A stretch of DNA of 43,707 bases, taken from NCBI GenBank assembly GCA_020532515.1, contig JAJBAY010000007.1:1-43707 (forward strand). Direction: 5' to 3'. A program made the position numbers and the translations under genes. This stretch comes from Candidatus Cloacimonadota bacterium. GTDB taxonomy: Bacteria; Cloacimonadota; Cloacimonadia; Cloacimonadales; Cloacimonadaceae. Shown in pieces: positions 2,296-43,707 of this stretch; the first letter of the stretch is position 1; every line of letters begins with the position of its first letter. The notes beneath the pieces are model-generated. The model worked only from the letters and a program-made list of their open reading frames with translations. It was not told the DNA's origin and did no database searches.

Positions 2296-2324
2296 TTGAC
2301 ATAAGAGGCTACTTTTTATTACAT
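2296..2324 (+). promoter_or_regulatory. Candidate sigma70-type promoter for the dksA-like/lspA run
   Basis: TTGACA at 2296-2301 is followed after 17 bases by TTACAT (2319-2324), with TATTAC at 2317-2322 as an alternative -10. It lies in the only gap (2289-2365) in this otherwise overlapping gene run, about 40 bases before the next start. The -35 is perfect and the -10 is weak. Confidence 0.45.
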
Positions 2325-2365
2325 GGAATGTCAGTGATAAAAAGAGATGAGATTAGGAGATAAAT

Positions 2366-2767
2366 ATGGCTGAAAAGAAACTTTCCGCTGAAAAGCTGAA
2401 GTTCTTTGAAGATCTGATTCGTGCAGAGCTCAAAGAAAGCATGGCCTATATAGAGAGCATCACCAAAGAACAGAGTGTGGGATCGCGTGAAAGCAGTGGA
2501 GATCTTTCATCTTATGCTTATCATCAGGCCGATCAAGGATCCGACACACAATCCATGGAACATTCTGTGATGATGATGGAAACCGAGCGCGAGAAGATTC
2601 GCAATCTGAATGATGCCATGCGCCGTCTGCATGACGGACGTTTTGGCTTTTGCGAGATGTGTGGGGAAGAGATTCTTTCCGCACGCTTGCAGATGATCCC
2701 TTATGCTACTCTCTGCATAGATTGCAAAGAGAAGATGGAGACCAAAAAGCGCAAACAAAGGCGCTGA
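2366..2767 (+). CDS. DksA/TraR-family C4 zinc-finger protein
   Basis: A 133-residue protein with an N-terminal helical/coiled-coil region (about 5-90) and a C-terminal C4 zinc finger, Cys96/Cys99 and Cys117/Cys120 (CEMCGEEI ... LCIDC), the signature of DksA/TraR proteins, which bind RNA polymerase through the secondary channel and tune promoters, often with ppGpp. The helical hairpin carries YHQADQGSD, similar to the DNHPAD-type tip of YteA/TraR-like members rather than the exact DxxDxA tip of E. coli DksA, so I do not assign the dksA symbol. Ribosome-binding site TTAGGAG at 2353-2359. lspA follows after 3 bases; this pairing with lspA is common in bacteria. Confidence 0.88.
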   Translation: MAEKKLSAEKLKFFEDLIRAELKESMAYIESITKEQSVGSRESSGDLSSYAYHQADQGSDTQSMEHSVMMMETEREKIRNLNDAMRRLHDGRFGFCEMCGEEILSARLQMIPYATLCIDCKEKMETKKRKQRR

Positions 2768-2770
2768 TTT

Positions 2771-3334
2771 ATGAAGACTAAACTCAAGCTTGCCCCGGCT
2801 TACCTGATCATGATGATCGTACTTTTGGCTGATCAAATCACCAAACTGATTGTACGCATGAATATTGAGCTATTTGATAGCGTGCCCGTGCTGGCAAATA
2901 TCTTTGGCGACACTTTCCTTTTTACCCATGTAAATAACACTGGAGCGGCCTTCAGCCTGGGATTTTCCAGCGATGTGGCAAACCGCGTGTTTTTTATCGC
3001 CACTACCTGCCTGGCTCTGATCTTTATCGTCTATCTGCTGCATCAAAGCACCCACCGTATCCAGGTGGTGGCTTTTGGTTTAGTGATGGGCGGCGCGCTG
3101 GGAAACCTGATCGATCGCATTATCTTGGGTGGAGTTACAGATTTTATCAATGTGGACTTTCCCGATTTCATCATGCATCGCTTTCCAATCTTCAATATAG
3201 CTGATAGCTGCATCTTTATCGCTGTCTGTCTTTTGATCATAGATCTATTTTTTATCAAAACTGCTCCAGTAGCCAAAGCTGAACCAGAGGCACAGGGGCA
3301 AAATCTGCAAGATATATATACCAAGGAGATATAA
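2771..3334 (+). CDS. lspA: Lipoprotein signal peptidase (signal peptidase II)
   Basis: Inner-membrane aspartyl protease that removes signal peptides from prolipoproteins. The 187-residue protein has four hydrophobic segments and the family motifs ADQITK (20-25), NNTGAAFS (55-62), GGALGNLIDR (107-116), GVTDFI with catalytic Asp124 and FNIADS with catalytic Asp145. The tail after about 165 (KTAPVAKAEPEAQ...) is a short charged extension. Its TAA is directly followed by the ATG of the next gene. A substrate in this window is the lipoprotein at 13751. Confidence 0.95.
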   Translation: MKTKLKLAPAYLIMMIVLLADQITKLIVRMNIELFDSVPVLANIFGDTFLFTHVNNTGAAFSLGFSSDVANRVFFIATTCLALIFIVYLLHQSTHRIQVVAFGLVMGGALGNLIDRIILGGVTDFINVDFPDFIMHRFPIFNIADSCIFIAVCLLIIDLFFIKTAPVAKAEPEAQGQNLQDIYTKEI

Positions 3335-4747
3335 ATGAAAAGAATCCTTATCATTATTTTAGCCCTTACATTGTCCGCCGGACTGATGGCTCAGCTTACG
3401 TGCTATCAGATCCAATATACGGACAATCCCAACGGCAATTCGCCATATAATGGACAATCCGTTACCGTTCAAGGTATCGTGACTGCCAGAAGACCTAATG
3501 CTGCTTTTTACATTGGTGACGCCGGGGGAGGCCCTTGGAGCGGACTTTACGTGTTTCATGCTAATACCAGCAATCTGGTGGAAGTGGGTGACATGGTGAA
3601 GCTCACCGGAACCGTGACAGAATATAACGGCCTCACCGAGCTTACAAACGTAACCGCAAGTGAGGTATTGTCTGGTAACAATCCTGTCCCTATCACTTCT
3701 ATTTCCACAGCCGATCTACCCCTTGGCGGGAGCGTTGGTGAGCCATACGAAGGTGTCATGGTGCGCTTCAACAACGTTCAGATCAAAAGCACCATGGATA
3801 ACTACGGCGTGTATAAGATAGCGGACAGCAGCAATGTGCAGACCAGTGTTGATGATACTCTTTATCCTCCTCAAGCCTCGCAAATCGTGGTGGGCGAATG
3901 GTGGAGCCAGATTCAAGGCGTGGTAGATTATTTCTCCGGCGCCGGTGGCTACAGACTCCTGCCCCGCAACGCCAATGATATGATCAAAGTGGACGACGTG
4001 AGCCATGCCAGCGTCAGAATCGGCAGCGAATCCAACGCGATCATGAATCAGATCAATACCCTGAATGTCTATACCAGCAAGCTGAAAAGTGAGTGGGGTA
4101 TCCGCGAATATGAAATGAAATTCCGCATAGATTCCAGCCAGGTCTTGTATCAGGGCTTTGAAATCTCCGGAAGCCTGAGTATGTTCAATCCCATCCAGAC
4201 TATTTCTGCAAATGGTGACACCATTACCCTGCATTATGGCGGGCAGGATAGCCTGGTCTCGGAAACAGATGATGGCGTCTTGATCAAGCTCAAATTCGAG
4301 CCTAAGGTTTATGGTGATTTGGTGATCCATCTGGATAAATTCCGTTATGATAATGTAAATATCAATTCTTTGTTCGATGGCAAGCTGATGGTCAAGATCA
4401 CCAACAACGTAGCTTATCTGAGCATAGGAAACGAATCAAACAATAAAAACATCTTTGATCCCTCAATGAATGAAAAGATAAATATAGAATTCGGGACCAA
4501 AACTGGCTTTTTGGCCCGGGCCTTGATTCGCATATACGACGCTCAAGGTAGATTGGTGGCCACTCCTGTACATCAGAATTTCACGTCCCCAACCGGCATT
4601 GAACGCACCAGCTGGAATGGACGTGACAGCAATATGAAGCTGCTGCCTCCAGGTCTGTATTACTGCCATGCCGAAGTGAGCAATCGCGAGACCGGTACAA
4701 GATCTAACACTGTGCAACCCATCGTGATCAAATCACGTCTGAAATAG
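3335..4747 (+). CDS. Secreted protein: OB-fold, cohesin-like region and FlgD/T9SS-type tail
   Basis: A 470-residue exported protein with a clear signal peptide (MKRILIIILALTLSAGLMAQ). Residues about 25-215 look like the OB-fold domains seen in exported nucleases and DUF5689-like proteins (QSVTVQGIVTARRPNAAFYI; GDMVKLTGTVTEYNG). Residues about 225-345 resemble a cohesin-type beta sandwich (EMKFRIDSSQVLYQGFEI; DGVLIKLKFEP). The last ~85 residues are a FlgD-Ig-like sorting/anchoring tail (IRIYDAQGRLV ... WNGRDSN ... LPPGLYY). No catalytic centre is visible. The gene abuts lspA and is 10 bases before the PorV-like gene, which fits an envelope/secretion context. Domain calls are by pattern; the cohesin-like one is the least certain. 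Confidence 0.75.
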   Translation: MKRILIIILALTLSAGLMAQLTCYQIQYTDNPNGNSPYNGQSVTVQGIVTARRPNAAFYIGDAGGGPWSGLYVFHANTSNLVEVGDMVKLTGTVTEYNGLTELTNVTASEVLSGNNPVPITSISTADLPLGGSVGEPYEGVMVRFNNVQIKSTMDNYGVYKIADSSNVQTSVDDTLYPPQASQIVVGEWWSQIQGVVDYFSGAGGYRLLPRNANDMIKVDDVSHASVRIGSESNAIMNQINTLNVYTSKLKSEWGIREYEMKFRIDSSQVLYQGFEISGSLSMFNPIQTISANGDTITLHYGGQDSLVSETDDGVLIKLKFEPKVYGDLVIHLDKFRYDNVNINSLFDGKLMVKITNNVAYLSIGNESNNKNIFDPSMNEKINIEFGTKTGFLARALIRIYDAQGRLVATPVHQNFTSPTGIERTSWNGRDSNMKLLPPGLYYCHAEVSNRETGTRSNTVQPIVIKSRLK

Positions 4748-19489: not shown

Positions 19490-22400
19490 AACGTTTATTA
19501 ATCGTGGTGCTGTTCATCTTAAGCCTACAGCTATGCTTTGCTGTCAGGATTGCTCAGGATGAGTTTTTTGGAAGAGAGATGCCCACAAAGAGTTCTCTCA
19601 AGCTGGTGAAAAGTGAAGCAGATCCTCACAATCAGCTCCGTTTATCTGATCTTTATCCTGAACAAGCTGCTGCAAATCCCAGAGAAGAGGGAGATCCTCC
19701 CACAAACCTCACTGCCACAGTACAAGACAACGATGTACAGCTCAGTTGGCATTCTCCCGAGGGACCGCCTCCGGCCTTGCTGGAAGAAAGTTTCGAGGGC
19801 TATCAGGATTTTAGCCGCACATTTGCTCCCTGGGTAGTGCAGGACCTGGATCTCTCTACCACTTATGGCTATACGGAAGTCAATTGGCCTGGCTCCAGCC
19901 TTCCTATGGCTTACATGATCTTCAATCCAGCTACCACCACTCCGCCGATTCCCAATTTTAACGCCCACAGCGGCAATAAGTTTGCTGCCAGCTTTGCCGC
20001 TGTCACTCCTCCCAACAACGACTGGATGATTTCGCCCCAGATCGAGGTTCAGGCCGGTTGTCATCTGTATTTCTGGGCCAAAACCTTTCTTGGCGATTAC
20101 GGACTGGAGCGCTTCAAGGTGGGAGTTTCCACAGGCAGCAGCAGTCCTGCAGATTTTACCATCATCAGTGGTGCAAATTATGTTGAGGCTCCCGAAGCCT
20201 GGACGCTGTATAGCTATGATCTCTCTGCTTATGCCGGTCAGAATATCCGCTTTGGCATCCAGTGTTTATCAAACGATGCATTTATCTTCTGTGTGGACGA
20301 TGTTTGGGTAAGCGAAACTCCACCTGAGAGCTATCACAGCCGTGACCTGCTGGGTTACAAGGTCTATCGTGATGGCGTAATGATCGCCACTATCAGCAAT
20401 CCTGCCACCGTCTCCTACGTGGATACTGATTTGCCCAATGGAGATTATCTCTATGGTGTAACTGCCGTTTACAGCGGAGGAGAATCCCCAGCCGCCACAA
20501 TAAACATAAATGTGAACTATTTCCTGACTACGGTAATATTTGAAGACGGCTTTGAAAGCTACCCGGATTTTGCCACTGTGATGAGTCCCTGGACCTTGAT
20601 AGATAATGATCACGGTCCTACCTATATTCTTACGCAATACACTTATCCCGGCATGACTACAGCTATGGCTTACATGGCGTTCAATCCCTCTGCTACCACG
20701 CCTCCCATAGCATACTATATGCCCGCCTACGCAGGAGATAAGATGGCTGCCTGCTATTCCGCCTGGAATGGTCCCAACGATGATTGGCTGGTTACTCCCA
20801 GAATCAATCTGGGAGAAAACAGCAGCTTTAGATTCTATGCCAGAAGCCATAGTTCGGATCATTTGGGCCGTCTGGAGCGTTTCCGCGTGGGCGTAAGTAC
20901 CCTGGACCACATTGATCCACAGGGTTTCACCTATCTTACAGGTCCGAATAGCAATGATTACGTACAGCCTCCCCCAAACTGGACACAGTACTCTTACGAT
21001 CTTTCTGCTTACGATAATCAGAGCGTGTATATCGTTATCCGCTGTATATCTGATGATACCTGGGCCTTGTACGTGGATGATTTCAGCGTACACAGTTCGC
21101 AAGGAGGCTATGATGAAGATCCCTTTGGCGGACCTGTGATCTTGCCCAGTAGCATGAGTGTGGCGGCTGCGGTTACGGTAAATGGCCAGCAAGCCAGCAG
21201 TGGTGACGTAGTGGCGGCCTTTGTGAATGTGAATGGTGCTCCACAGCTGCGTGGAAAGGGGATCATAAATACACAATACGGAATTCCGGGTTGCACGCTA
21301 CAAGTGTACACCGCCATCAGCGATGAAATAGTGTATTTCAAGCTCTGGCAAAGGAGCACTGAAGAGCTATTTAATTCTGCTGGCACCCTAAGCTCTATGA
21401 TAGGCGGCAGCGCAGGCAGTTGGCCAAACGATCCTATCTACATAGATACATATACCTCAGCCTCACAAAACATTCTGCTCAGACCGGGCTGGAATCTTGT
21501 TTCTCTGGCTGTGGCTCCTGCGGATTGCTCTTTGCAGAATCTTCTCTATCCTTTCGCAAATAGTGTGCTTCAGGTGAAGGGCATCCAGGGCGTATATGTT
21601 CCTGGAAATCCATACTCCAGTCTTACAGCTATTCAGCCAGGAGAGGCTTACCTCATTCAGGTGACTGCCCTCTGTGAATGGTCTGTATCTGGAATCCGGA
21701 TTCCTTACAATACTCCGATATCCCTGGTTGAGGGCTGGAACCTCTCTGCCTATTTTCCCGAAAATGAAATGCCGGTAGCTGAGGCGCTGATGGGCATCTC
21801 TGCCTGGCTACTTCAAGTGAAGGGCAAAGATGGCGTATATATCCCCGGGAATCCCTATTCCACGCTGAACACCATGTACCCCGGTAAAGGATATTGGATC
21901 AATATCAGTGGTGACCACCAGCTCATCTATCCCAATTCTGCCAAAGGTTTGCTTGCAGACACTCAAGTAAAATCTACGGTAGAGGTAGAGGAGCTCCCTC
22001 TCAGCATGGTGCTTTTGGCAAGATGCGACTCTGCTGAGGCCGGAGATATCCTCATCGCCAGGGTGGAGGGTGAATTGCGTGGAGCCCAGGAACTTGTAGC
22101 CCCGGAAGGATTCCCTGCAGCGCTGCTGCAAATCTATCTCAATGAGGCTGAAGAAGAGATCAGCTTGTGGCTCAGAAAGCCTGATGGCACCGAGCTTCCC
22201 ATTGCGGAAAAATTGAACGGCAGAGCGGGCCAAGATCTGGGCAACTATCCTTCTTTCGTATCACTCCAGCCTCTGGCCGAGCCTGGCGATGCTCCCGGAC
22301 TGCCTACCAGGCTTGTCTCCTGCTATCCCAATCCCTTCAATCCCAGCACCACGATCTCCTTTACTATAGCCGAAGATAATACCCCCGTAAGCGTGAGGGT

Positions 22401-22581
22401 TTACAATCTGCGCGGACAGCTGATCTCCAAGCTCGCAGAGTCTGAATATCCCAAGGGTGCTCATCAGATAGTCTTTGATGCTACAGGCCACCAGGGCAGC
22501 AGCCTGAGCTCGGGAGTTTACCTGGTCCAGCTAAAGGCAGGAAGCTATCATCAGACTGCCAAAGTGATGTTATCAAAATGA
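19486..22581 (+). CDS. Large secreted mosaic protein 1 (anchor-J x2, FnIII, FlgD tail)
   Basis: A 1031-residue exported protein with a signal peptide at 1-20. From about 65 a fibronectin III domain starts (PTNLTATVQDNDVQLSWHSP) but is interrupted by a choice-of-anchor-J-like lectin fold (about 99-275, ESFEGYQDFSRTFAPW ... NNDWMISPQI) and resumes at about 284-345 (LLGYKVYRDGVMIATI). A second anchor-J copy is at 352-538. Then come an LRGK module (541-658), two GWN repeats (662-818, GWNLVSLAV and GWNLSAYFP), a divergent LRG module (825-928) and a FlgD/T9SS-type tail (942-1031, YPNPFNPSTTISF). GGGAGGAGAG precedes the start. No catalytic site is visible; likely an adhesive or structural surface protein. 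Confidence 0.85.
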   Translation: MKRLLIVVLFILSLQLCFAVRIAQDEFFGREMPTKSSLKLVKSEADPHNQLRLSDLYPEQAAANPREEGDPPTNLTATVQDNDVQLSWHSPEGPPPALLEESFEGYQDFSRTFAPWVVQDLDLSTTYGYTEVNWPGSSLPMAYMIFNPATTTPPIPNFNAHSGNKFAASFAAVTPPNNDWMISPQIEVQAGCHLYFWAKTFLGDYGLERFKVGVSTGSSSPADFTIISGANYVEAPEAWTLYSYDLSAYAGQNIRFGIQCLSNDAFIFCVDDVWVSETPPESYHSRDLLGYKVYRDGVMIATISNPATVSYVDTDLPNGDYLYGVTAVYSGGESPAATININVNYFLTTVIFEDGFESYPDFATVMSPWTLIDNDHGPTYILTQYTYPGMTTAMAYMAFNPSATTPPIAYYMPAYAGDKMAACYSAWNGPNDDWLVTPRINLGENSSFRFYARSHSSDHLGRLERFRVGVSTLDHIDPQGFTYLTGPNSNDYVQPPPNWTQYSYDLSAYDNQSVYIVIRCISDDTWALYVDDFSVHSSQGGYDEDPFGGPVILPSSMSVAAAVTVNGQQASSGDVVAAFVNVNGAPQLRGKGIINTQYGIPGCTLQVYTAISDEIVYFKLWQRSTEELFNSAGTLSSMIGGSAGSWPNDPIYIDTYTSASQNILLRPGWNLVSLAVAPADCSLQNLLYPFANSVLQVKGIQGVYVPGNPYSSLTAIQPGEAYLIQVTALCEWSVSGIRIPYNTPISLVEGWNLSAYFPENEMPVAEALMGISAWLLQVKGKDGVYIPGNPYSTLNTMYPGKGYWINISGDHQLIYPNSAKGLLADTQVKSTVEVEELPLSMVLLARCDSAEAGDILIARVEGELRGAQELVAPEGFPAALLQIYLNEAEEEISLWLRKPDGTELPIAEKLNGRAGQDLGNYPSFVSLQPLAEPGDAPGLPTRLVSCYPNPFNPSTTISFTIAEDNTPVSVRVYNLRGQLISKLAESEYPKGAHQIVFDATGHQGSSLSSGVYLVQLKAGSYHQTAKVMLSK

Positions 22582-22688
22582 TCATAATAAAAGAGTTCCG
22601 GTGTCTGCAGGGAAGCATGTGTCTTAAGCTATATCCCTCTGTGCTGCAAAGATATCAAATTAATGTATCAGCTCTTTCTGGAGGAAAG

Positions 22689-25600
22689 ATGAAAAAGCTT
22701 CTTTTGCTTAGCCTCTGCTTCTGTCTGCTTATCGGCTTTGCCTTTGCCAAACCGATGTCTTTCGATAATGGCAGAAAGCCGTTGGACAGTCCTATGTCCC
22801 GGCCTCATTTGCGGCAGAACAGGACAGCTCCTGACTACAGTTTTACCCGCGCTCCCATCTCTCTGCTGACCAGCTATTACGATTATATGATAGGGAGCTA
22901 TAACTCATTGCCCCTTCGTGTGATTCCGGATGCGGCAGGCGGCGGATATTTTCTCACTTATCATGGCAAGCGTACTGTCACTGGCATGCGCCGGGCTTTC
23001 TTTGCACATCTAGATGCAAACGGAAGCTTGCAGACCGGCAGTGAGATCAGCACTGAGTATCGCGGCGAAGGATATCCCGCCCTGGACGTGGATCCGGTAT
23101 CAGGAAAACCCCTGTACGCCTGGCATGCCAATGCCGATACCGATCCCGAATATGAAGTAGAGTTCACTTCCGATGCCTTTATAATTGGAATTCCCGGTCT
23201 CTTCAATGAGATCCAGGTGCCCATTGACAACCCCTTGGTAATTCTGATAGCAGGAGCTGTGGCTTCTTCAAACAATGAATTCATCTGGCCCAGCCTCCAA
23301 ATCGGACCATCCCCTATACTGGGCAAGCGCAGAGCATATATTGCCGCGCGAAACTCTGTATCACACCATTCCAACTCAAATCCCAGTGAGAACATCCTCC
23401 TCGCTTTTGCCGATTTTAATGAGGCTATGATTGAGGGAGGAACCCCGCTGGTCTGGAGCTACAGCTCTATTCCCGAAATGGATGTATGGAACCACGGTCA
23501 AGGTGATTACCGCCGTCCCTTTTACTCTCTCACCACAGACAACCTGGGCAATGTCTATTATGCTGGATATCATACTGCTTACATCAATAACTATGTCCCA
23601 ATTGATGAGCCTGATCTGGATGTCTTTATGTGCCCAAATTACGGTCAAGGCACCTGGACCCGCGTTAGCGATTATAGCCACATCCCTACCTGGAACCCTC
23701 CTGCCATCCCTGGCGGCAGTGTTTTCTTTACGGATAATGACGGTGTGCCTTATACTTCTGAAGAAATCCACTGGGGTCTGGTCAATTCCAGCCACTTGAA
23801 TGCAGTTAGCTCTGGCGATGGCAAGATCATCTTCCCTGCACTTTTCAGTATCAATGATGATGCAGGTAGCTACTTTCGAGATTTTCATACTGTAAAAGCC
23901 GTGATCTATGATACTCTGGAAGGTGAATATACCATCAAGGATATCTATCCCCAGAAGAATCCGGAGGACAACTTTAATGAAACGTTCACTCCCTGGGACA
24001 GGCAACCGCCTTGGGGCGAGCCAGAATATTCTCAGGGTGATGATGGTGAGTTTTATCTGGATCTTGAAAAGCATTATCCTTTCCCACATTGGGACGATGA
24101 ACTGCACAGTGATGCTATGATGTTTCACTACAACAATCTCAAGGTGTCAAAAGTAAATGCCCAGGGGATGATGGCTGCCGTATGGCAAGATAGCCAACGT
24201 GCCAGATGGGCAAATAAATACGACAATCCTGATTTTGCCGCCTTTGCCGATGTCCCGGAGATTTACATCTCTGTATCGCAAGACCGCGGCCAAAACTGGA
24301 GCGAGCCTATCGTGCTGAACAAAGCGGAAATCCCTGAATTTGCTGGAATCAAACCCATGTGGGTCTATCCTGCAGATTTGGTTAAGTACGTGGGCATGCA
24401 AGGCGCAAACAAGGTAGGCCGTCTCGGGCTGATGTTTTACGATGATTTCACCTGGGGCTCCAATGCCATCAATCCGCCCTCGCACCCTGTGAATGATGGT
24501 GGACGGGTGATGTTTACCGAGCTTCAGATCGTATTTCCAAACCCCATAGTTCCCGGTCATGATCCCTTTGACCAGCCTCTGGTGCTCAGCAGCAGCATGA
24601 CCCTGATGGCAGGGGTATTAATAGACGGTGAGGCTGCTGCAGTTGGGGACATCCTGGCTGCGTTTGTGGATGTAGATGGACAGCCCCAGCTCCGCGGCAA
24701 AGAAACTCTGCAGCTCAATTCCGGCATCGCCGGCTGCCTGATGCAGATCTATACCGAACAAAACGCTGAAGATATTTACTTCCTGCTCTGGGATGCCAGC
24801 GCAGATCAGGTGCTTTCCGTAAACGAAAGCCTGGACAGCGTAGTGAATGGAACTGTGGGCAGTTGGCCGGATAATGTGTTCTGGCTGCATGCTGTAGGCA
24901 ATTCTACATTAAATATCAGTCTGCAAAAGGGATGGAATATGTTCTCTTTGAACCTGCACCCCTTTGATACTTCCATTTCGGACATATTTAGCGATATTCG
25001 CGCCAATGTGTTGCTCGTGAAATCCCCCGATGGGGTTTACCTGCCTGATAATCCCTACAACGGCTTAAACAACCTCGTGGATGGCAGAGGCTATTGCGCC
25101 AAAATGTCTGCACCTGCCACCCTGATAGTGGAAGGTGCCCCAATAGCTGAAAGCTCTCCTATACCATTACAAGAGGGTTGGAACCTGGTGGGCTACCTTC
25201 CGCAGAACGCTCTGGAAGTATCCCCTGCGATAGCCTCCATTGCCAGCTCTCTCATTCAGATCAAAGGCGTGGAAGGCGTGTATGAACCTGGCAATCCCTA
25301 TAACAGCCTCAGCACCCTCAGCCCCGGCAGGTCATATTGGATGAAGCTGGGTAGCGATATAAACCTGATCTATCCTGCCGGAAGCAGATTTGCCGGTAAA
25401 ACTGCCAAAGCTCAGCCCATACCCGATGGCCTGGTTATAAAGTCCAATAGCCAAAGCATTTTGCTCGGCTTTGGGCCTGGCGTCCAAGCCGGTGATACAG
25501 TAATGGCCTTCGCAGATGGCGAATTGCGAGGATGCGCAAAAGTGCAGGAAGCAGGTGGTCATATGGGTGCCCTGCTGCAGATCTTTAGCGACAGCGCCGG

Positions 25601-26033
25601 TGAGCAGGTGGAGTTCAAACTCAAAAGCTCTGCTTCTGGCAATATTATCCTGCTGGAGCCCGGCCTCCAAACTGCCCCCGGCACCATCCTGGGAGACTAT
25701 GCCAAAGGCGAGTATTTCATGCTGCAAGAAGGCCAGCCCGATCTACCTGAGCTGATCACCAGCCTGGGAGCGGTCTATCCCAATCCCTTCACAAAAACTA
25801 CCAGCATCGCTCTCACAGTGGGCAAGGCTGAAGAAAACATCAAAGTGGAAATCTATAACCTTCGTGGCCAAAAGGTGAAAACCTTGATCCAGGACAAGCT
25901 GAGTCCCTTATCTATGAATCTGATCTGGGATGGGCAGGACGATAGCGGCCGCCAGATGGCCTCTGGCATCTATTTCTGCCGGCTAAGCCACGCCAAAGGC
26001 AGTCAAACCGTGAAGCTCATGCTTCTAAAGTGA
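22689..26033 (+). CDS. Large secreted mosaic protein 2 (propeller-like region, FlgD tail)
   Basis: An 1114-residue exported protein. ATG 22689 is chosen since CTGGAGGAAAG precedes it and a signal peptide (MKKLLLLSLCFCLLIGFAFA) follows, although the frame is open to 22578. Residues about 45-617 form a region resembling sialidase-type propellers (TSYYDYMIGSYNSLPLR; SVSQDRGQNWSEPIVL resembles an Asp-box) and closely match the gene at 28147. An LRGK module (622-737), two GWN repeats (739-897), a divergent LRG module (910-1013) and a FlgD-like tail (1026-1114, YPNPFTKTTSIAL) follow in the same order as in protein 1. Fold by pattern only; catalytic residues not identified. Confidence 0.82.
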   Translation: MKKLLLLSLCFCLLIGFAFAKPMSFDNGRKPLDSPMSRPHLRQNRTAPDYSFTRAPISLLTSYYDYMIGSYNSLPLRVIPDAAGGGYFLTYHGKRTVTGMRRAFFAHLDANGSLQTGSEISTEYRGEGYPALDVDPVSGKPLYAWHANADTDPEYEVEFTSDAFIIGIPGLFNEIQVPIDNPLVILIAGAVASSNNEFIWPSLQIGPSPILGKRRAYIAARNSVSHHSNSNPSENILLAFADFNEAMIEGGTPLVWSYSSIPEMDVWNHGQGDYRRPFYSLTTDNLGNVYYAGYHTAYINNYVPIDEPDLDVFMCPNYGQGTWTRVSDYSHIPTWNPPAIPGGSVFFTDNDGVPYTSEEIHWGLVNSSHLNAVSSGDGKIIFPALFSINDDAGSYFRDFHTVKAVIYDTLEGEYTIKDIYPQKNPEDNFNETFTPWDRQPPWGEPEYSQGDDGEFYLDLEKHYPFPHWDDELHSDAMMFHYNNLKVSKVNAQGMMAAVWQDSQRARWANKYDNPDFAAFADVPEIYISVSQDRGQNWSEPIVLNKAEIPEFAGIKPMWVYPADLVKYVGMQGANKVGRLGLMFYDDFTWGSNAINPPSHPVNDGGRVMFTELQIVFPNPIVPGHDPFDQPLVLSSSMTLMAGVLIDGEAAAVGDILAAFVDVDGQPQLRGKETLQLNSGIAGCLMQIYTEQNAEDIYFLLWDASADQVLSVNESLDSVVNGTVGSWPDNVFWLHAVGNSTLNISLQKGWNMFSLNLHPFDTSISDIFSDIRANVLLVKSPDGVYLPDNPYNGLNNLVDGRGYCAKMSAPATLIVEGAPIAESSPIPLQEGWNLVGYLPQNALEVSPAIASIASSLIQIKGVEGVYEPGNPYNSLSTLSPGRSYWMKLGSDINLIYPAGSRFAGKTAKAQPIPDGLVIKSNSQSILLGFGPGVQAGDTVMAFADGELRGCAKVQEAGGHMGALLQIFSDSAGEQVEFKLKSSASGNIILLEPGLQTAPGTILGDYAKGEYFMLQEGQPDLPELITSLGAVYPNPFTKTTSIALTVGKAEENIKVEIYNLRGQKVKTLIQDKLSPLSMNLIWDGQDDSGRQMASGIYFCRLSHAKGSQTVKLMLLK

Positions 26034-26051
26034 TAGAGGAGAGATGATCTC

Positions 26052-28115
26052 ATGAAAAAGAAATATATAATCCTACTGATCCTGGTGGCTATCAGCGCTA
26101 TGGCCTTTGGTACAGACCCTTGGGGTGACCCGGAAATTCTCTATAGTAGTATGACCGTGATGGCCCAAGTGAACATCAATGGCTCTCCCGCTGCTGCTGG
26201 CGATGTTCTGGGAGCTTTTGTAAACGTTCAGGGAGCGCATCAATTGCGCGGCAAAGCGATTGTGTTGGTAGTGGATGGCGTAGCAGGCTGTTTGCTGCAG
26301 ATCTTCACAGAAACAGATGCAGAAGAGCTCCACTTTAGGGTCTGGGACGAAAGCCTTGGTGCCCAATTCGGTGCAGATCAGATTCTGCTCTCTGAGGTGA
26401 ATGCCATTGTGGGCGAATATCCGGATAACTTGTACCAGATCAATGCCAACCATCAGCTCTTGACCGGGGACCCTTGGGAACAGCCCATGGTCCTGCCTGG
26501 AAGCATGACCCTGATGGCTCAGGTGAGCATCAATGATGCTCCTGCTACCGTGAATGATATCCTGGCAGCTTTTGTTACGGTGAATTCTGTAGAGCAATTG
26601 CGAGGTAAAGCGCCGATATCTGTGATAGGTGATGTTCCGGGTTGCCTGCTCCAGATTTTTACAGTAAGTGCCGATGAGGAGATTCGCTTCAAAGTCTGGG
26701 ATTATAGCGCACAACAAATCCGTATCTGTAGCAATATCCTGCTCTCAAAGCCTGATGGCGAGGTCGGCTCCTATCCAGATAATATGTACTTTATCAATCC
26801 CGACGGAGATTATCAGCAAATTGCCCAGCCCAAGATTAGCCCCGCGGGTGGAGAATATGCCATTTCTCCGCAAATCTCTATCACTTGCGCTCAGCTCGGG
26901 GCTATCTTGCGCTACACCACAGATGGCAGCAGTCCCACTATCTCTTCTACCCTATATACCGCGCCCTTTGCTTTGCCAGAGGCTGCGACCACAAATGTAA
27001 GGGCTAAGGCCTTTTTGGACGGATGGTACCCCAGCCTGATTCAATCTGCCACCTTTCAGATCAACGGCCCTGTGGCTACTCCTGTATTCTCACCCGAACC
27101 CGGAACCTATAGCTCTTCGCGCTCTGTGAGCATTACTTGCGCCACCCCTTCGGCTCAGATTCGCTATACCACAAACGGCTCCGACCCTGGCGAAACTTCA
27201 CCCCTTTATCAATATCCCATCAATCTTCCGGCTAATAGCTCTACCACTGTCAAAGCCCGGGCATTTAAACCAAATTGGGGACCCAGCAGCATTGCCACAG
27301 GCTCTTATGTGATCACGGGAACTGTGGTCAGGCCTACCTTCTCACCTTTGGGAGGGGCGTATCTGGATCCTGTGACGGTAAGCCTGCATACTATCACCAC
27401 CGGAGCCCAAATCCGTTATACTACAGATGGCTCGGAGCCCAGCTCTGCTTCCACCCTGTATAGTGCCCCCCTTCAGATTAGCAGCACCTGCACTCTGAAA
27501 GCAAAAGCCTTTTTGGATGCATGGCTACCTAGCGATACTGCCATGGCGGTCTATACCATTGGCGAAAATGTAGCAGTTCCCACCTTTTCACCAGAGGCCG
27601 GCACATATCATACAGATAATCTGTATGTCCAGCTAATCTGCGCCACGCCCTCAGCTCAAATCTATTATACTCTGGATGGCACGATCCCCACTCAGAGCTC
27701 AACTCTGTACAACGCACCCATTGTTATCTCAGGGACTACCCTGGTGAGTGCTCGCGGGTATTATTTGGATTATACCCCCAGTGCTGTCGCTACAGCCCAG
27801 TACACCTATGCGGTAAGCAATCCCACAGACTATCAAACCCCAGAACTTTGCGGTATCAAAGCTGCCTACCCAAATCCTTTCCAAGATCGGCTCACCATTT
27901 CCTTGCAAGTAAAAGACTCTTCTCAGGATTATAAGTTCAAGATCTATAACGTCAAAGGCGCCTGCGTCTATACCAACACTGGCACCGCCAAAGGAAGCTT
28001 TGAGCTTTTCTGGGATGGCCGGGATGCACAAGGCACGAGGCTGCCCAGTGGAATATACCTGCTCAATCTAGTTACACAGGATCAGAAGGCTACTCGCCGG
28101 GTGATCCTGTACTAA
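26052..28115 (+). CDS. Secreted mosaic protein 3 (LRGK modules x2, chitobiase-C repeats x4, FlgD tail)
   Basis: A 687-residue protein with signal peptide 1-20. Two complete LRGK modules stand in tandem (21-135 and 139-251; DPWGDPEILYSSMTVMAQV and DPWEQPMVLPGSMTLMAQV). Four repeats of about 82 residues follow (257-590), each with the pattern P.FSP..G.Y......V.I......AQIRYTTDGS.P......Y..P, matching the chitobiase/beta-hexosaminidase C-terminal domain often found as a spacer on surface proteins. The tail (597-687, YPNPFQDRLTISLQV ... RRVILY) is nearly the same as that of the next gene. No enzyme domain. Start 18 bases after gene 2, with AGAGGAGAG upstream. Confidence 0.85.
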   Translation: MKKKYIILLILVAISAMAFGTDPWGDPEILYSSMTVMAQVNINGSPAAAGDVLGAFVNVQGAHQLRGKAIVLVVDGVAGCLLQIFTETDAEELHFRVWDESLGAQFGADQILLSEVNAIVGEYPDNLYQINANHQLLTGDPWEQPMVLPGSMTLMAQVSINDAPATVNDILAAFVTVNSVEQLRGKAPISVIGDVPGCLLQIFTVSADEEIRFKVWDYSAQQIRICSNILLSKPDGEVGSYPDNMYFINPDGDYQQIAQPKISPAGGEYAISPQISITCAQLGAILRYTTDGSSPTISSTLYTAPFALPEAATTNVRAKAFLDGWYPSLIQSATFQINGPVATPVFSPEPGTYSSSRSVSITCATPSAQIRYTTNGSDPGETSPLYQYPINLPANSSTTVKARAFKPNWGPSSIATGSYVITGTVVRPTFSPLGGAYLDPVTVSLHTITTGAQIRYTTDGSEPSSASTLYSAPLQISSTCTLKAKAFLDAWLPSDTAMAVYTIGENVAVPTFSPEAGTYHTDNLYVQLICATPSAQIYYTLDGTIPTQSSTLYNAPIVISGTTLVSARGYYLDYTPSAVATAQYTYAVSNPTDYQTPELCGIKAAYPNPFQDRLTISLQVKDSSQDYKFKIYNVKGACVYTNTGTAKGSFELFWDGRDAQGTRLPSGIYLLNLVTQDQKATRRVILY

Positions 28116-28146
28116 AACAAAACCTCAGATATTATCTGGAGGAAAG

Positions 28147-30201
28147 ATGAAAAAGCTCTTGTTACTCAGCCTTTGCTGCATGATCGGGCTGGCTTTTGCT
28201 GAAGTCCCTGATTATTACTTTACGCATGCTCCTGATGCTCTGATGACCAGCTATTACGATTACATGATTGGGAGCTACAATTCGCTGCCTCTGCGCACAA
28301 TTCCGGATGCTGCAGGTGGCGGCTATCATCTCACATTTCATGCCAAAACTACCCCAACCGGTGTCCGCAGCGTGTTTCGTGCCCATGTAAACGTAGCAGG
28401 TGCCGTGACTCATTGCACTAAAATCAGCAATACCTTGCTTCCGGAAGGATATCCTGCCGTGGCTGTAGATCCGGTGAGCGGTATCCCCATGTATGCCTGG
28501 CATGCAAACGTGTATGGGGATAGCAGCCCGAAGGTCATGTTTGCATACATTCCTTTAATCAATGGCTTTCCCGACCCCATGTTCGCACCGCAGATCATTA
28601 TTGATAACCCCGTCGCGGTTTCCCCCACAAACGACAATGCATTTATCTGGCCCCAAATTCAGATAGGCCCTTCGCCAAATCCCGATATGAGAAGGGTGTA
28701 TGTGGCTGCCAGCAATTCAATAAGCCATGCCGCAGGCGGAATGCAGAGCCCAAACTTTATGATCGCTTATGCCGATTTTGATACCAATATGCTGACTATG
28801 GGCTATGCCTTATCCTGGAGCTATACCACTGTGCCGGAATTGGATCAGTGGAATACTGATACCCAGGCCTGGCGGCGTCCATTTCTCGCTTTTAACCTTG
28901 ATAGTTCAGGCAATATCTATCTTGCGGGATATCATACCGCCTCCTATTCTAACGGTGATCTTATAGACGAACCTGACCTGGATATATTCATGTGTCCGGA
29001 TTACGGTCAAGGCACCTGGACCAGTTTGACAGATCCCAGCCACATTCCTACCTGGTATCCTGAAGTCTATGAACCCTATGCCCTTACAGAAGGTTTACCT
29101 TTTCCAGAGGATGAGCTGTACTGGGCTATCATGAATTCCAGCCATTTGAATGCGGTTAGCATCGGCGCTGGCAAGATTATCTTCCCCGCCCTTTTCACGA
29201 TTTGCTCAGATGCCGGTGCCTACTATCCTGCTTTTCATACCGTAAAAGCTGTGATCTATGACAGCGCGGAGGACGAATTCGCCATCAAAGAGATCTATCC
29301 CCAGAATGATCCACGAGACGACTATAATGCAGTATTTACCCCTTGGGACTGGCAGCCGCCTTGGGGTGACCCCGAATGGGTATTGGGCGATGATGGAGAA
29401 TATTATCTGGATCTGGCAACACATTTTCCCTTTGCGCACTGGGACGCTTCCTTGCATGACGGTGCGATGATGAACCACTACAATAATCTCAAGGTCTCTG
29501 AAGTCAATGAACAGGGCATGATGGTGGCTGTGTGGCAGAATTCTCAGCGTGCCATGCTTTTAGCTAAATCTGCTGCCCAAAATCCTGACTTGGATGGTTT
29601 TCCAGAAATAATGATCTCTGTATCTCCCAATAGTGGCGATAACTGGAGCGAGCCCATCCGGCTCAACGGTATAGATAATCCAGCCCTGGACGGTATCACG
29701 CCCATGTGGGTCTATCCCGCAGATCTGGTAAAATACATGGGCATGCAAGGCGTAAACAAGATAGGCCGCATCGGGCTGATGTTTTACGATGATTACACTT
29801 GGGGGGCTAATGCTGTCTCTCCACCCGCCCATCCTGTGAATGATGGGGGCAGGGTGATGTTTACCGAACTGCAGATCGTATTTCCAGATTTTCCCATTGG
29901 GATAGACGATCCTACCTATGAAGTTCCGGCAGTTTGTGGCATTTCTGCAGCCTACCCCAATCCCTTCCGAGATCAGCTCAGCATTTCTCTGCAAGTAAAA
30001 GACTCCAATGAGGATTATAAGTTCAATATCTACAACGTCAAAGGGCAATTGGTTCATAGCAGTTCCGGCATCGCAAAAGGCAGTTTTGACCTGAACTGGG
30101 ATGGTCGGGATGCCAAAGGCACGAGGCTTCCTTCCGGAATATACCTGCTTTCCCTTTCCACAAAAGGACAACAAGCTACACGTAAAGTAATCCTATACTA
30201 A
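28147..30201 (+). CDS. Secreted protein 4 (propeller-like paralogue, FlgD tail)
   Basis: A 684-residue protein with signal peptide 1-18 (MKKLLLLSLCCMIGLAFA). Residues about 19-590 match the N-terminal region of the 22689 gene throughout (TSYYDYMIGSYNSLPLR, AHLNAVS-like SSHLNAVS, GLMFYDDYTWGANAVSPP, NDGGRVMFTELQIVFP), and the tail (593-684) matches that of the 26052 gene. It therefore looks like a recombinant of its two neighbours without LRGK or GWN modules. CTGGAGGAAAG before its ATG is identical to that of gene 2. It is last in the cluster and followed by a strong terminator. Confidence 0.85.
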   Translation: MKKLLLLSLCCMIGLAFAEVPDYYFTHAPDALMTSYYDYMIGSYNSLPLRTIPDAAGGGYHLTFHAKTTPTGVRSVFRAHVNVAGAVTHCTKISNTLLPEGYPAVAVDPVSGIPMYAWHANVYGDSSPKVMFAYIPLINGFPDPMFAPQIIIDNPVAVSPTNDNAFIWPQIQIGPSPNPDMRRVYVAASNSISHAAGGMQSPNFMIAYADFDTNMLTMGYALSWSYTTVPELDQWNTDTQAWRRPFLAFNLDSSGNIYLAGYHTASYSNGDLIDEPDLDIFMCPDYGQGTWTSLTDPSHIPTWYPEVYEPYALTEGLPFPEDELYWAIMNSSHLNAVSIGAGKIIFPALFTICSDAGAYYPAFHTVKAVIYDSAEDEFAIKEIYPQNDPRDDYNAVFTPWDWQPPWGDPEWVLGDDGEYYLDLATHFPFAHWDASLHDGAMMNHYNNLKVSEVNEQGMMVAVWQNSQRAMLLAKSAAQNPDLDGFPEIMISVSPNSGDNWSEPIRLNGIDNPALDGITPMWVYPADLVKYMGMQGVNKIGRIGLMFYDDYTWGANAVSPPAHPVNDGGRVMFTELQIVFPDFPIGIDDPTYEVPAVCGISAAYPNPFRDQLSISLQVKDSNEDYKFNIYNVKGQLVHSSSGIAKGSFDLNWDGRDAKGTRLPSGIYLLSLSTKGQQATRKVILY

Positions 30202-42303: not shown

Positions 42304-43581
42304 TTATTTAACACGTATTACCTTGCTCACGGCAGAGGCTTTATCCTGCTTCGCTCTGATGAAGTAAATTCCATTGGCACTATCTCTTCCTTGAGAGTCC
42401 TTACCATCCCAGATGACCTTATCGGAGTCCGTAAATTCTCTGACTAATTGTCCACGGCTATTGTAGATGCTGATCTGAGGAGTTCCCACGGATTTCGCTG
42501 AAGTGCTGATGTTTAGACTTTCGGTGAAGGGCATAGGCCAGGCCTTGATCTGCAGGGCAGGACTTACGCCTTGCACGAGATCTTCACTGGAAGTAAAGCT
42601 TCCCCAGAAGTATTCGATCTTGGTGTCATTTTCCCAAGTGCCAGCAATGCCATACTGCATAATGGTATATTCCATATTGCCATTTGCATCATAATTAAAG
42701 AAGGTCTTATCTTGAGTGACCCATTGATTTGTAAGCCATTCATCTTCGTCCTGGCGGATTCTGCGCAATGATCCATCATATTCCCATACAGTCCGGTAAT
42801 CCGGAATCCATATTTCGCCATTCCAAAAATAACTGGTGCTGGAATTTATCAATATGGGAATATTCCATTCCATGAGAAGGAAGGTCGAACTATAGGCATT
42901 GGCAAGATATTCTATGAAATCAGCCCCAGTGGAATTATCTTGGGGGTGATAGCTGGTCTCATTTTTTGTGTCGAAAGTCCAGTTTACATTGTCCATGGAA
43001 ATATAAGAGAGCTCTCCCGTAATTCTGCCCGAGCCATCGTAAGTGAATGTGCTATGAAAGTACTGGTCACCTCCATCTTCATTTTCCCAGGAGAATACCT
43101 CAAAGGTATTATTGGGACCATATACATATTCATACCACATATCGTGGTTCCAGGTCTCGAAGTCCATGAAGTCTATAATGTACATATCTTGACGGACAAC
43201 GCGGTTTTGCGCATCATAAACAGATTCAAAACGCGCGAAAGGGATAGTTTGAGTGCCAAAGTTCAGATCCATAATGAAACTTGTAACCAATCCAGCAGCG
43301 TTGTACTCGTAATAGCTATGCGACATTGGGTCTCCCCAGCCGTTCTCTTCCCAGCTATGCATAACTATAGATTCCACTCGGGAAGGACCGCTATCAGAGT
43401 AATTAACGATGGTTTTGATAGATGGAATCCAAGCCCCTTCCTCATACTCATTACTGATATGATGTGTCAGTCTAAAATCGCGACTGGGGGATTTTGGAAA
43501 GTTCACGCCAAGCCGCTGAATCCTGTCCAGCAAGCCTGCCTGTGCAAATAGGGGTAGGCAAATGACAATAAGTATTACGTA
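42304..43581 (-). pseudogene. Secreted YD-repeat-like protein with FlgD tail, 5' end cut by an IS21 insertion
   Basis: Reading on the minus strand, the frame is open from the IS junction (about 43581). It first encodes the back half of a signal peptide (VILIVICLPLFAQAG, codons 43578-43534) but contains no ATG/GTG/TTG before it; the first usable start is TTG 43533, which would lose the signal. The mature part has YD/RHS-like repeats (YYEYNAAGLVTSF; FTYDGSGRITGEL; FFNYDANGNMEYTI) and a FlgD/T9SS-type tail (PMPFTESLNIST ... ISIYNSRGQLV ... WDGKDSQGRDSANGIYF). The body is intact over 409 codons, so damage is recent and limited to the start. Expression or export is probably lost. In sense it belongs with the exported surface proteins of this window. 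Confidence 0.75.
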
Positions 43582-43707
43582 TGTCGATGGCAGTTAAAAG
43601 TGCACCAGTTTCGGAAGTTTAGATTGCACCAGTTTGTGTAATAATAAACTTAGCCTTTTGATAGAGATATCAGGAGGTGAAATGAAAGGAGCCGATGTGT
43701 ACAATGC
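43582..43707 (+). mobile_element. Left end of an IS21-family insertion sequence (partial)
   Basis: From TGTCGATGG at 43582 the sequence carries two copies of TGCACCAGTTT (43601-43611 and 43625-43635), the kind of repeated binding site found inside IS21-family ends, followed by a strong ribosome-binding site and a transposase-like start. The exact left border is inferred from the TG start and from the break in the neighbouring reading frame. The rest lies outside the window. Confidence 0.7.
43682..43707 (+). CDS. Start of an IS21-type transposase gene (istA-like, partial)
   Basis: GGAGGTGA at 43673-43680 precedes ATG 43682, which opens MKGADVYNA before the window ends. DVYxxV/I is the common opening of IstA-like proteins (…xELYxxVRRA…), but nine residues are too few for a firm call; the IS-like repeats just upstream support it. 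Confidence 0.5.

Follow-up and report, generated by a model that had tools for sequence, protein, structure and literature searches.

A predicted type IX secretion cargo gene interrupted near its start by an IS21-family element in a Candidatus Cloacimonadota-like genome

How does a gene for a secreted protein come to lack its own start? The window analysed here is the entire contig C19 (43,707 bp) of G000, a metagenome-assembled Candidatus Cloacimonadota-like draft genome (2.33 Mb, 150 contigs, 4% contamination). Close to its right edge, on the minus strand, lies the 3' remnant of a gene for a secreted protein (42304..43581), which extends from codon 5 to the stop codon (425 aa) with neither an internal stop codon nor a frameshift. 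Read from 43581 to 42304, the frame translates as YVILIVICLPLFAQAGLLDRIQ... up to the stop and opens partway through a signal peptide, the rest of which (YVILIVICLPLFAQAG) is encoded at 43534..43581. No ATG, GTG or TTG is found in frame upstream of the remnant as far as an in-frame TAA (43594-43596, minus strand), which closes the gene frame upstream; the first ordinary start codon of the frame is TTG 43533, downstream of the signal peptide. This agrees with the first-pass annotation of the window, which had described the back half of a signal peptide reaching 43581 with no start codon and had proposed that a recent IS21 insertion displaced the first codons.

An IS21-family end at the contig break

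The remnant abuts a sequence that begins with TG (TGTCGATGGCAGTT...) and fills the last 126 bp of the contig (43582..43707, plus strand), the left end of an IS21-family element. It contains two terminal repeats, L1 (43589..43611) and L2 (43613..43635), 24 bp apart, each bearing TGCACCAGTTT (at 43601-43611 and 43625-43635, respectively), and then the start of istA (43682..43707, MKGADVYN...), preceded by the RBS AGGAGG (43672-43677); the two repeats and the istA-like start from 43582 had both been recognized in the first reading of the sequence. The same left end recurs at 9 further contig ends of G000 with 96-100% identity, and the junction sequence at 43582 is therefore not a chance resemblance. 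The second end with similar repeats, which had been predicted, was found at 13 contig ends as a related, inverted sequence (TGTCAATGG...). All 10 left ends and 13 right ends of G000 are located at contig ends; no contig runs through the element, which is thus a repeat, present in multiple copies, at which the assembly broke.

Published work on IS21 (Spinola-Amilibia et al. 2023, PMC10122671) describes a target duplication, of 5 bp in the member studied, and terminal repeats that come in pairs at the ends. As in IS21 and IS5376, the element described here has TG...CA ends (left TGTCGATGG..., right ...CCATTGACA) with two repeats each, whose spacing of 24 bp is similar to the published 23 bp; the left and right ends are identical at 43 of 53 positions. 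IS21 elements encode IstA (DDE transposase) and IstB (AAA+ ATPase) in this order; here only the istA start and the istB tail are seen, in the expected order and direction. The tail is encoded at positions 2-70 of a second contig, C26, as the 22 residues SEKFSDGAFPLRSKAPSENFKG followed by a stop codon. Both gene ends were aligned with a sibling element, L076, carried by contig C81 of another genome of the genus (G001) and complete apart from its outer left end: MKGADVYN aligns with the start of the sibling IstA (MKGVPVYQQV) and the tail with the C-terminus of the sibling IstB. In L076, istA (507 aa; NF033546, 2.8e-58) overlaps istB (270 aa; NF038214, 4.8e-75), and the right-end layout is the same as that of the window's element. 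The start of istA on C19 and the end of istB on C26, both read in one direction, are what a single IS21 element between the two contigs requires. On either side, the contigs reach some 125 bp into the element, and its two ends together with the sibling element suggest that the C19/C26 copy has an istA-istB body.

A search of G000 by IstB family showed that the element body is absent from the draft genome; the only match, a 455-aa frame on C2, was set aside as probably DnaA, a name based on that length. The exact IS end had no match in the viral collection, and no literature joining Cloacimonadota and IS21 was found. Unlike the described IS21 and IS5376, the element is thus far known from its two ends, and its end sequence was found in no more than a few genomes, all of this lineage. 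In G000 the right end exists in two versions, TTTTCACTC and TTTTCGCTC (L011, L016 and L017 versus L014, L018, L020 and L023), which implies two or more sub-lineages of the element. Contig C149 (10 kb; L094) has a right end at both sides and must therefore lie between two copies in opposite orientation; C32 (L090) bears a short tandem repeat encoding (GLE)n near its right end, close to an IS left end.

Target duplication and pairing of contigs

The five bases flanking each left end were compared with those flanking each right end (130 pairs). Exact 5-bp matches were obtained for 8 pairs, covering 7 right ends and including one contig, C126, that matches two left ends, so that some 5-bp matches may be coincidences; none was longer than 5 bp. 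Offset controls (n=1848) gave a mean of 0.16 matches and a maximum of 3, and the duplication is thus 5 bp long, without a clear target consensus, as in the IS21 family. By this approach C19, where ATTACGTA immediately precedes the IS, pairs with C26, where the IS is directly followed by ACGTAGATACGTTTCATGTTACACCTC. The shared bases are ACGTA, with the left copy at 43577..43581 and the right copy directly after the IS right end on C26; a short target duplication had been predicted near 43570-43581.

Other genes were found at these junctions. The same IS has also split a gene between C24 (L088) and C52 (L103), which share the duplication CATTT. This second gene encodes a 147-aa membrane protein and is broken close to its start, at codon 13; the protein reads MRVLANIIWHFPF up to the break and FGFLSALG... 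beyond it. No homologue of this gene is present in the sister species G007, and an empty site was not obtained there. The first 620 bp of C104 (L098) carry a fragment (164 aa) of a gene with a T9SS sorting tail, which begins immediately at an IS right end; no 5' part of this gene was found. We considered a preference of the element for T9SS-cargo genes and rejected it: a TIGR04183 tail is encoded at 2 (C19/C26 and C104) of at most 16 distinct sites, which is about chance because the 93 T9SS-tail genes of G000 represent roughly 10% of the genome by our estimate.

The reconstructed gene and its uninterrupted relative

C26 carries the missing start: an RBS (GAGGTG), then ATG AAA CGT ATC TAC GT, then the junction. 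Joining C19 and C26 with a single ACGTA gives, on the minus strand, GAGGTGTAAC ATG AAA CGT ATC TAC GTA ATA CTT..., and the resulting open reading frame of 429 aa, beginning with MKRIYVILIVICLPLFAQAG, is complete with RBS and full signal peptide, the n-region of which (MKRI) sits on C26. The ATG codons had been expected beyond the element and are there; the description of the start as removed does not hold, since it was displaced by the insertion and is unchanged on the far side.

An empty site, also foreseen in the first reading, is provided by the one relative carrying an orthologue, G007. At positions 2317-3606 of its contig C3, an uninterrupted gene encodes a protein of the same length (429 aa, MKRMYIIFIVICLPLFAQAG...), sharing 67% amino-acid and 76% DNA identity with the joined gene and a conserved AACGAGGTGTACCATGAAACGTAT around the start; dN/dS between the two genes is about 0.29. 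Beyond the 3' end of the gene, G007 has the same neighbours as the window (permease, murB and helicase, named from reading of the translations), and upstream it has a tandem paralogue, as at C26:375-1670, where the paralogue is intact (60% identity). The same neighbours on both sides independently support the placement of C19 next to C26. A 150-contig draft with 4% contamination, in which every IS copy breaks contigs, could in principle yield an assembly or binning chimera, or a recombination between IS copies, bringing together gene halves from different loci; however, this reading is scarcely credible, being contradicted by the matching target duplication, by the complete frame obtained on joining and by the matching gene order that a single contig of the sister species shows to either side of the gene.

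At the C-terminus of the product, a T9SS type A sorting domain (42316..42540, minus strand) matched TIGR04183 with 35.9 bits (cut-off 23) and Por_Secre_tail PF18962 with 33.5 bits (cut-off 27); at the N-terminus, a Sec signal peptide, judged by eye, is present both on joining and in the sister species. These features are shared with T9SS type A cargo proteins (TIGR04183), whereas the middle region here consists of weakly YD/RHS-like short repeats. G000 encodes 93 T9SS sorting tails and a SprA homologue, which fits a published remark on the possible occurrence of T9SSs in Cloacimonadota (PMC11285876). On these sequence features the gene product is a predicted T9SS type A cargo, which would be secreted via the T9SS. 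Elsewhere in the window (22324-30192, plus strand), four T9SS sorting-tail genes form a cluster, with tails at 22324, 25773, 27864 and 29950.

Consequences of the insertion

The IS ends, the duplication, both gene halves and the empty site of the sister species were observed directly, and although the element body lies outside the bin and no G000 read or contig spans it, we consider it almost certain that a recent, loss-of-function insertion of an IS21-family element accounts for the start-less gene. Every proposed test that was run supported this earlier proposal. The element (istA-istB) would have transposed into codons 5/6 of the T9SS-cargo gene, duplicating the 5-bp target ACGTA, with istA directed away from the 3' part of the gene. 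The promoter, the RBS and MKRIY are left on the far side, where the frame now continues into IS sequence and gives a dead peptide of 27 aa (MKRIYVVNGILKCTTFGSLNCTTIFNL), and the 3' part persists as an open frame devoid of a start codon, from which no exportable protein is expected. As the remnant has lost promoter, RBS, start codon and signal-peptide start, a null allele with complete loss of the secreted protein is the most likely outcome. The intact 60%-identical tandem paralogue on C26 may buffer this loss, which would perhaps explain why it is tolerated.

A different effect on the gene would be a reversible or partial switch, through IS-driven expression from an unusual start or through population-level on/off of one of the two tandem surface proteins, which we regard as very improbable. 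It is also very improbable that the remnant is expressed with secretion kept, from a transcript leaving the IS and using the rare start CTG 43591-43593 (LPSTYVILIVICLPLFAQAG...). No stop codon interrupts the frame between CTG 43593 and its end, the hydrophobic core is retained, and promoters acting on neighbouring genes can be carried by insertion sequences as a class (PMC10122671); however, a simple-consensus search of positions 43450 to 43707 on the minus strand found no promoter-like site directed outward, no RBS was seen ahead of the CTG and the positively charged n-region is lost from the remnant.

The insertion is recent. The frame without stops or frameshift and the dN/dS of about 0.29 indicate that purifying selection acted on the gene for the greater part of its history, so the interruption is recent, as also follows from the near-identical IS left ends combined with the stop-free frame. 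In G007, three contigs (C28, C57 and C80; L056-L058) carry the IS left end with 100% identity over 123-126 bp. Compared to the 76% DNA identity of the interrupted gene, this suggests that the element has recently moved between species.

The insertion is an ordinary one, a routine IS knock-out. For the draft genome, it means that IS ends at the contig breaks of a metagenome assembly can be paired via the target duplication, as 7 right ends were here, and that two large contigs, C19 (44 kb) and C26 (39 kb), can be linked, which explains the start-less gene of a predicted T9SS cargo.
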